Shown here piece by piece: positions 30,257 through 33,305 of a DNA stretch of 64,000 bases. How positions within the stretch are numbered: the first letter of the stretch is position 1; each line of letters opens with the position of its first letter. Below the pieces are notes generated by a model. The model was given only the letters and a program-made list of their open reading frames with translations, ran no database searches and was not told the DNA's origin. A program made the translations under genes and the position numbers. This stretch comes from Bacteroidota bacterium (GTDB lineage: Bacteria; Bacteroidota; Bacteroidia; Chitinophagales; Chitinophagaceae): assembly GCA_963169635.1 (NCBI GenBank), contig CAUJDL010000041.1:62001-126000 (forward strand). The letters are read 5' to 3'.

Positions 30257-31663
30257 TTATTTACCTATTCCATTTCCTTTTTTTCCTTTTATTAAACCCA
30301 TACAGTTTTTGCTTTTACAATTGCATTGAAATGGTTGAGCTGTTTCGTCTAAAAAATGAGCATAGTTAATAGTTAGCTCTTCATTGGCTTTAATATTTTT
30401 TGTAGCAATAACATTTAAACCATTATAAGCTGTATTAGCATGACAACTATGATTTTGTGGTGCCCATTCTGATGGATGCAAACTCCATAAAATATATACT
30501 TCTTTATTTATTGGATAGGCATAATGTTTAAAAACTTCTTTTTCTTTTTTACTCCAATTTTTATCTACAAATTTTTTTGTTACTATACGATGATTGGCTT
30601 CTTCACCTTTAAAAATAATGGTTCCTTTTTTTATTTCTTTAGTTGCATAAATGCCATAACCATTAGTAGCATTGCTTTTTACTACATATTTTTTTTGTTG
30701 TTGAGCATGTCGTTCTATTCCTTCTTTAATAATATGCTGTAAAAATTTTTGCTGACCATAACCATTTAATTTTAAAATATAATCTGCACTACCCTCGTAG
30801 CCATTTGTATAAAATACAGAGCATGTAAAATTAATTTCTAAAAAATAAATTTCATGCTGGCTGTTCATTCTAAAATCTAATCTTGCATAACCTTTACCAT
30901 TAAAGCCTTTAAAAATTTTTGTAGCAGCATTTTTAAGTTTTAAAGAAAGTGATTTATCTTTTACAAGTACATTAGCATCTGTATGTAACTCTGCTGTTTT
31001 TAATGCATATGTTTTATAATGTTTTCCTTCAGGAAAAATATATTCAATAGGCTCTAATGCTGTAATAGTTTTACCATCTTTATTTGCTATTACTAAAACA
31101 GTAAACTCTCTGCCAGATATATATTCTTCTATTAAAACTTCATCAAACTCTTTTAAAATATTGTTTGTTTTTTTACTTAGTTGCTTTTTATTTTTTACTA
31201 AAGAAAAATCATCAACACCAAGACTATCACCTGCTTTAGCAGGTTTTACAAAAAGTGGAAATTTTAACTGACTAATTTCTTTTTCAATATTTGTACAAGC
31301 ATTTATAACTACAAATTTTGGTGTTAAAATATTTTCGCAGTAAGCAACATATTTCATTAAAGTTTTTGGTGGGTCGTATAAAACAGATGTAGGACCTGTA
31401 AAGGGCAAGTTTAATAACTCTAAAGAATAAATAACATCAATACTTGGTACATCCCATTCTAAATATCCCTCACATAAGTTTATATAAATATCAAAATTTT
31501 GTTTGCTTAATAATTTTAATTGTTTATAAGTAGTAAGTTTATTTAAGAAAACAGTTGTTACTTGATGTTTGGGTAATAAAGGAGCTAAATTTCTTGGAGG
31601 GTCGTAGTTTTGATAATCTACATTAGAGGTTGAATAATCTGGTAAAAGCACACATACTTTCAT
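30257..31663 (-). CDS. ATP-grasp (D-Ala-D-Ala-ligase-like) / SET-post-SET methyltransferase fusion protein
   Basis: ATP-grasp: 'FPLFVKPAKAGDSLGVDD', 'VLIEEYISGREFTVLVIA', 'GYARLDFRMNSQHEIYFLEINF'. SET: 'NGYGIYATKEIKKGTIIFKGE', 'NHSCHANTAYNG', 'EELTINYAHF', post-SET 'CNCKSKNCMG'. Confidence 0.9.
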   Translation of the reverse strand: MKVCVLLPDYSTSNVDYQNYDPPRNLAPLLPKHQVTTVFLNKLTTYKQLKLLSKQNFDIYINLCEGYLEWDVPSIDVIYSLELLNLPFTGPTSVLYDPPKTLMKYVAYCENILTPKFVVINACTNIEKEISQLKFPLFVKPAKAGDSLGVDDFSLVKNKKQLSKKTNNILKEFDEVLIEEYISGREFTVLVIANKDGKTITALEPIEYIFPEGKHYKTYALKTAELHTDANVLVKDKSLSLKLKNAATKIFKGFNGKGYARLDFRMNSQHEIYFLEINFTCSVFYTNGYEGSADYILKLNGYGQQKFLQHIIKEGIERHAQQQKKYVVKSNATNGYGIYATKEIKKGTIIFKGEEANHRIVTKKFVDKNWSKKEKEVFKHYAYPINKEVYILWSLHPSEWAPQNHSCHANTAYNGLNVIATKNIKANEELTINYAHFLDETAQPFQCNCKSKNCMGLIKGKKGNGIGK

Positions 31664-31673
31664 AAAAAATGTT

Positions 31674-32792
31674 TTATGCTACTGCTGCTTTTTTTGTAAT
31701 AGATAAGCTGCCAGAATTTTCTATAATTGTATTCATTAATATAGATTGTATAAGCTGTGTAAATGAAACATTACTTGCTCTTAAAATAGCACCAATAGAA
31801 GTATAATTTTCATCTTCGCTTAAGCCACATTGAGCATTTACTTCTAAAACATACATTTGTTGAGTATGTTTATCCATTCTAATATCAACTCTTGTATAGC
31901 TTTTGCCTCTACAAGCTACATAAGCATTCCATGCTAAATTTTTTATTGTATTATGTAACGATACATCTGGAATACGATATTCATAAAAATTTTCTTGATT
32001 AGGCATGGGTGATTCGTTTTCATAAATTTCCCAAAGCCTTTCAAACGATAAAAACTTTTCAGTATCGGGCAATGATGTATGAAAAACTCTTTCTACAGGT
32101 GTATATATAATTGCATTTGATGGATTATCGTAATTGCCAACAATCATTACAGTAAACTCTGCACCATTAATAAAAGATTCTGCAATAATACCATCAGCAG
32201 TTAATTGCCAACCACGATAGCCTTGCATTAAATGCAATACTTCATTATTTAATTCATCAATATTTTTAACTACATTATTTATTCCAACACCCATGCTACC
32301 ACCACTTACAGCAGGTTTTAAAATAATAGGACAACCCAACTCATTAAAAATATTGGCTGATAGTGGTGTGTTATTTACAATAGCTTGCCATTTTGCAGAT
32401 AAAACATTACATTTATCAAAAGCCATTTTCATAGGTATTTTTGATGTAGTAATATTATAAAAATAAGCATCGGCACCAGTAAATAATAACGACTTTTCTG
32501 TTAAATAATTAATGATAGAAATACCTGGTGTATTATTTGTTTCATCGCCATCGCAGAGGTTTAAAATTAATTTTTGTTTTAAAATTTTTGTATTGGCAAT
32601 TTCATCTATCACTGTTTTATAATTATGTAAACTTATAGGTTGCCATTTCCATTCAATATTTAATTCTTTAAAAGTTTGGGTATATTCTGCAATGCTTTGA
32701 GAAAAATCGTAATAGTAGTTAATATTATCGTCTTCTGTTTCAATAAAAGGAGCTAATACCCAAACAAAATAATTATTTAATAAGCTGTGCAT
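31674..32792 (-). CDS. ATP-grasp (D-Ala-D-Ala-ligase-like) carboxylate-amine ligase
   Basis: 'CPIILKPAVSGGSMGVGINN', 'GIIAESFINGAEFTVMIVG', 'YTRVDIRMDKHTQQMYVLEVNAQCGLS'. Confidence 0.88.
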   Translation of the reverse strand: MHSLLNNYFVWVLAPFIETEDDNINYYYDFSQSIAEYTQTFKELNIEWKWQPISLHNYKTVIDEIANTKILKQKLILNLCDGDETNNTPGISIINYLTEKSLLFTGADAYFYNITTSKIPMKMAFDKCNVLSAKWQAIVNNTPLSANIFNELGCPIILKPAVSGGSMGVGINNVVKNIDELNNEVLHLMQGYRGWQLTADGIIAESFINGAEFTVMIVGNYDNPSNAIIYTPVERVFHTSLPDTEKFLSFERLWEIYENESPMPNQENFYEYRIPDVSLHNTIKNLAWNAYVACRGKSYTRVDIRMDKHTQQMYVLEVNAQCGLSEDENYTSIGAILRASNVSFTQLIQSILMNTIIENSGSLSITKKAAVA

Positions 32793-32807
32793 GTTTTGTA
32801 TTTTGGG

Positions 32808-33305
32808 TTAATGATATTGTTGTATCATAGATTGTATAAAAGAAGTTAATCTATACTTGCTTAAAATTTCTTTAGATAAATATTTTGCACCTTGTATTGT
32901 TTTAAGACAATTATCTGCATTACATAAACACTCAAATGGTTGAGAAATATCCCATTCTGTAGCAGGATAAAAAAAGCAAAGTTCATCGCCAACATTTATT
33001 TTTCTAATACAAATAAATTGTAGTTTATCTGTATCAAATAATACATTAGGATTACAGCTATGATTAGTGAGTTGTAAATTAGTAGGAGCAATCATGATGT
33101 GCTCATCTACTCCTTTTTGAATAGTTAAATAAGTGGGAGATTTAAAAATTTCTGCAATGGTAAAATGACAAATAACATCATTTTCATTAAATGCTTTTAA
33201 TGCAAAAAGAGCTTTAGATGAGGTTAAAATATTTTGTCTTGCTTCAGCAAAATCAAATGTATCAATTACTTGATAGTAGGGTTGTGTAATTTGCACTAAT
33301 GGCAT
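32808..33305 (-). CDS. stand-alone SET domain protein with post-SET Cys motif
   Basis: 'NHSCNPNVLFD', 'VGDELCFFYPATEWDISQPFECLCNADNCLKTIQG' (CxCx4C). Confidence 0.87.
   Translation of the reverse strand: MPLVQITQPYYQVIDTFDFAEARQNILTSSKALFALKAFNENDVICHFTIAEIFKSPTYLTIQKGVDEHIMIAPTNLQLTNHSCNPNVLFDTDKLQFICIRKINVGDELCFFYPATEWDISQPFECLCNADNCLKTIQGAKYLSKEILSKYRLTSFIQSMIQQYH

Follow-up and report, generated by a model that had tools for sequence, protein, structure and literature searches.

SET methyltransferases and ATP-grasp ligases in a conserved Bacteroidota cassette: a candidate pathway for a methylated peptide-like metabolite

Most of what is known of SET enzymes concerns the methylation of lysines in histones or other proteins. 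What they might do in bacteria next to amide-forming ligases is the question raised by a group of three genes, designated S, G and GS (Table 1), in a 64,000-nucleotide stretch of a Chitinophagaceae genome (the window). A sequence-only reading of this DNA had described three co-directional minus-strand ORFs with gaps of 15 nt (S/G) and 10 nt (G/GS), in exact agreement with the ORF coordinates. Its domain calls (SET, Ddl-like ATP-grasp, ATP-grasp-SET) are borne out by Pfam matches, all of them above the gathering scores. The flanking genes in the window are presumably nadB-like upstream and mscL-like (a 133-aa ORF) downstream. The genome has a third, divergent SET gene (127 aa; G000 contig C63, L102:8180-8563), which lies close to an asparagine-synthase-like gene and in which no post-SET cysteines were seen.

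Table 1. Features of the cassette (window coordinates) and their Pfam matches
Feature	Coordinates	Strand	Description	Pfam match
S	32808..33305	-	stand-alone SET/post-SET methyltransferase, BurB-like, 165 aa, ATG start	SET 1.4e-8
G	31674..32792	-	Ddl-like ATP-grasp ligase, 372 aa, ATG start	Dala_Dala_lig_C 1e-16
GS (whole)	30257..31663	-	ATP-grasp fused to SET/post-SET, 468 aa, ATG start	
GS N-terminal ATP-grasp ligase domain	30698..31663	-	~residues 1-322	Dala_Dala_lig_C 6.7e-26
GS C-terminal SET/post-SET domain	30257..30697	-	~residues 323-468	SET 2.5e-12

Conservation and co-inheritance of the cassette

A single scan of genome contigs with GS as the query returned 55 loci with 54-78% identity; judging by the record titles they all come from Bacteroidota, most of them from Chitinophagaceae. 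In 50 of the 51 loci with room for it, G immediately precedes GS, and start and stop codons frequently overlap (-4 or -10 nt). Since the gene order is kept to this extent and such overlaps are many, the cassette cannot be put down to chance, and the absence of synteny that would have spoken against the sequence-only reading did not materialise. S directly precedes G in 27 of 47 loci. The genes around the cassette vary from locus to locus, so it can be considered a self-contained unit. S does not adjoin GS in 19 genomes: it is encoded elsewhere in eight of them, and was not found in ten drafts with G-GS or in G214, which has GS alone. No full-length GS turned up in a search of plasmids. Cultured strains with the cassette gene set include Sediminibacterium soli and S. 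roseum.

Co-inheritance was evaluated in 297 genomes of the phylum, with S counted at E below 1e-50 and GS only when full-length. GS is present in 15 genomes, 14 of which (all but G214) also have S; none of the other 282 genomes has S. In two GS genomes S is retained though unlinked. G occurs in six genomes, all GS-positive. The S/GS association involves three families and has a Fisher p of 4e-23 over genomes and 4e-11 over genera, both values being too optimistic owing to relatedness. As SET domains of any kind are found in 140 of the 297 genomes, the association is a property of these two families and not of SET domains at large.

A second lineage, comprising eight genomes of one genus (g50, family f17), has S-GS without G. 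Six g50 loci have room to show the arrangement, and there S and GS are followed by a full ABC exporter (PF00664 and PF00005) and then by a SET protein of 118-120 aa. These are probably green sulfur bacteria, because genes for magnesium chelatase subunits I and D lie near one of the loci. At least 40 members of the genus were sampled and only eight have the operon, so its distribution there is patchy.

Of 46 Chitinophagaceae loci, 12 have a gene for an ABC membrane domain (PF13748) directly after GS, on the same strand and 45-219 bp away (L005, L009, L011, L012, L015, L020, L021, L023, L025, L028, L047 and L057); its product has no ATPase domain. The order in L098 is G-GS-PF13748-S, and G211 has S and G together on one contig, GS on a second and a PF13748 gene on a third. 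Most Chitinophagaceae loci lack an adjacent exporter, and a genome search found no PF13748 gene in the window's own genome, which rules it out as an obligatory part of the cassette. Overall, S and GS make up the core; G is an extra, lineage-specific component, and part of an ABC exporter is frequently included. The linkage of the three genes noticed initially is real, and the composition of the unit has to be revised.

No conserved in-frame small ORF, which had been suggested as a possible partner, was detected up to 800 bp from the cassettes at the 55 loci; all that came up were parts of neighbouring genes, either fragmentary or read out of frame. This makes a ribosomal precursor peptide unlikely. 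A graspetide or other RiPP maturation system was rejected for want of a conserved linked precursor within this distance at these loci, a more distant precursor being possible.

S and the BurB family of SET methyltransferases

Both S and the SET half of GS can be assigned to the SET-domain class V methyltransferases by their Pfam matches and conserved residues, S also by its model matches. The best solved relative of S is BurB, about 27% identical (phmmer 1.8e-9; profile search 8.5e-19, against 9.6e-9 for the next structure). The predicted S model (pLDDT 93) has SET structures as its best matches, and Foldseek places BurB-SMM-SAM first, with TM-scores of about 0.64 and rmsd of 5-8 A over the alignments, which amounts to no more than a family-level match. 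A tree of 38 SET sequences puts S into a clade (95/84) with BurB, the Eleftheria and Rhizobium relatives of BurB, a Streptomyces protein and the 118-aa SET protein. Short generic SETs and the SET domain of GS lie outside this clade.

FFYPxxEW and the zinc cysteines are invariant in the S alignment, and N-H-x-C-x-P-N is nearly so; neither SET family shows any variation in the post-SET zinc cysteines. For the GS SET domain the N-H-x-C motif, the C-x-C-x4-C cysteines and Y434 are invariant in 24 sequences. S and BurB have in common a T-x-Q strand and Y-x-[SA]-T-E, located in or beside the two methionine-contact segments of BurB (residues 70-73 and 130-132). Together with the tree placement these motifs rule S out as a generic bacterial short SET. 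As BurB holds methionine through main-chain atoms, the exact amino acid used by S cannot be predicted from its residues. S is therefore closest to BurB in sequence, phylogeny and predicted fold, which applies to S and not to the SET domain of GS.

BurB S-methylates free methionine (PMC7496086, PMC12542666), and in its pathway the S-methylmethionine formed is the precursor of the osmolyte DMSP (PMC7496086). The Burkholderia thailandensis enzyme (PDB 9l4t, 9l4v) is, like S, a stand-alone SET protein of similar size with post-SET cysteines, and its gene serves small-molecule synthesis. The two settings differ. The partners of BurB are a decarboxylase, a transaminase, a dehydrogenase and a PKS-NRPS. 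The S cassette has no such gene linked to it: genes of the DMSP pathway (S-methylmethionine decarboxylase, transaminase, dehydrogenase) are absent from the window ORFs around the cassette and were not noticed in the relatives read. Conversely, no ATP-grasp partner is described for bur.

ATP-grasp ligases related to Ddl

The ATP/Mg ligand residues are invariant in both G (R301, D303, E317 and N319 in 18 sequences) and GS (K140, R261, D263, E276 and N278 in 24 sequences), so that both belong to the ATP-grasp enzymes, with no sign of catalytic residues being lost across the family. They have the fold, the ATP-grasp core, the Mg-binding E-x-N and the R-x-D in common with the Ddl and Van ligases, and Ddl structures are the best Foldseek match of the ligase half of the predicted GS model (pLDDT 88). 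In contrast to Ddl, both carry N-x-x-C-[SG] in place of the P-G-[FM]-T stretch, and their TIGR01205 (Ddl) scores of 95 (GS) and 65 bits (G) are far below the cut-off of 245.65. The true Ddl of this genome, encoded on another contig, scores 297 bits, above the curated cut-off, and retains the loop EVNTVPGQS. In the ligase tree, which left out the rows Ddl_L207 (a non-fitting ORF) and Ddl_L212 (long), G and GS group together (100/99), and a second clade (100/99) unites Ddl with aminomutase-linked ligase pairs, the program warning of long branches that meet there. G and GS are thus not housekeeping Ddl enzymes. The motif difference and the improbability of D-Ala-D-Ala ligation, both claimed from the window sequence, are borne out by the changed loop, the low scores and the separate true Ddl.

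The aminomutase-linked pairs were found at L103-L107 as tandem Ddl-like ATP-grasps, in most cases with a RimI-like GNAT and lysine 2,3-aminomutase, and with a recG-like gene nearby in several. The GNAT and the aminomutase beside such pairs presumably make up an acetyl-beta-lysine osmolyte set. Like G and GS, these are two adjacent Ddl-like ATP-grasps of the same wider group, and one member has an E-V-N-P-N-P-D-x-S loop comparable to theirs. Unlike G and GS, they have no SET partner and group with Ddl (100/99); close kinship was ruled out by this separation.

Proposed pathway and its alternatives

On balance, we lean towards reading the cassette as a small operon that makes a methylated peptide-like metabolite, often for export, rather than as a chromatin- or cell-wall-modifying system. 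A small-metabolite pathway fits best because a BurB-like methylase stands with a second SET domain, one or two ligases that form amides and, frequently, an exporter. Several observations point the other way: identity between S and BurB is low, the GS SET domain lies outside the BurB clade, the PF13748 gene is missing from the window's genome and an adjacent exporter from most Chitinophagaceae loci, no S was detected in about ten draft relatives with G-GS, and G214 has GS alone.

The first step would be the SAM-dependent methylation, by S, of a free amino acid, most probably methionine (giving S-methylmethionine) or a similar one. The ATP-grasp half of GS would then activate a carboxylate as acyl-phosphate and join it to an amine, after which its SET half may methylate the bound substrate or product again. 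G, where present, could add a further unit, and the ABC exporter, where present (full in g50, the membrane domain only in some Chitinophagaceae), may move the product out. The earlier idea of amide ligation plus N-methylation accordingly survives in part. A linked ligase-methylase system is supported by synteny, co-inheritance and intact catalytic residues, and peptide ligation with methylation is likewise supported; the evidence does not favour N-methylation of lysine or protein by S, the closest relative of which among characterised enzymes is a methionine S-methyltransferase.

We also entertain, more tentatively, the idea that the cassette stands for a natural-product pathway of a new class. 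Its SET enzymes would work on two kinds of substrate, a free amino acid and an intermediate bound to the ligase; GS would be a self-contained ligase-methylase, and the exported product would be a small peptide bearing a sulfonium or methylammonium group. When described in 2020, BurB was regarded as remarkable since natural-product methyltransferases had until then belonged only to classes I and III (PMC7496086). If the proposed pathway is correct, a conserved operon of BurB-like SETs, ATP-grasp ligases and an exporter would mean that SET enzymes serve bacterial small-molecule synthesis more widely, and the cassette offers a short, testable gene set for finding the product.

The main rival is protein modification, which we consider unlikely and which stays in play mostly on account of the SET half of GS: S and GS would methylate lysines of a cellular protein, to which the ATP-grasps would add amino acids in the manner of tubulin ligases or RimK. 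It is consistent with the position of the GS SET domain outside the BurB clade, with the usual action of SET domains on protein lysines and with the lack of linked biosynthesis genes beyond the ligases and methylases. There is also a eukaryotic precedent, TTLL12, the only published case of SET together with an ATP-grasp, an amidoligase, an amino acid ligase or Ddl that an open full-text search returned; no description of the operon came up there (the subscription literature may hold an earlier mention). TTLL12, like GS, joins SET-like and ATP-grasp-type (tubulin-tyrosine-ligase-like) domains in one polypeptide, with the SET first and the ligase second; it lacks some ATP/Mg motifs and was not found to have histone methyltransferase activity (PMC3520985). 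Against protein modification, S groups with BurB, exporter genes recur, and the ligases resemble Ddl, known members of which join small molecules, and not RimK or TTL.

Slightly less probable is a compatible-solute pathway, in which a methylated amino acid or dipeptide would be kept inside the cell against osmotic stress. The presumed acetyl-beta-lysine sets with related ligase pairs and the mscL-like gene (assigned by reading) adjoining the window cassette are suggestive of it; the G/GS clade, however, stands apart from those pairs, adjacency to mscL was not seen to be conserved, and the exporter association speaks against it. The route from S-methylmethionine to DMSP in the BurB pathway is a further point in its favour (PMC7496086). 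An alternative peptidoglycan precursor built by G and GS and methylated by the SET enzymes is very improbable: the Ddl-type fold and best solved matches suggest it, yet the bit scores set G and GS well apart from the genome's own Ddl, their substrate-loop motif differs and we noticed no partner gene of the Mur or Van type beside the cassette.

Apart from the cassette, we came across SET genes in three other settings. An Eleftheria terrae plasmid (L142:7857-12325) has the order PKS, SET, TauD, aminotransferase, aldehyde dehydrogenase and PKS/NRPS-like, resembling the bur DMSP cluster. In Rhizobium bangladeshense plasmid p7 (L141:5931-7843) asparagine-synthase-like, BurB-like SET and SAM-decarboxylase-like genes stand in a row, and the putative decarboxylase might act on S-methylmethionine. 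In G206 (L139:7489-10818) a SET-SpeD-SpeE fusion of 617 aa adjoins a SET protein of 483 aa, the C-terminal half of which looks ATP-grasp-like by eye, unconfirmed by Pfam or hhalign (probability 4.6). The small-molecule contexts of these genes support the general idea of a SET role in small-molecule metabolism.
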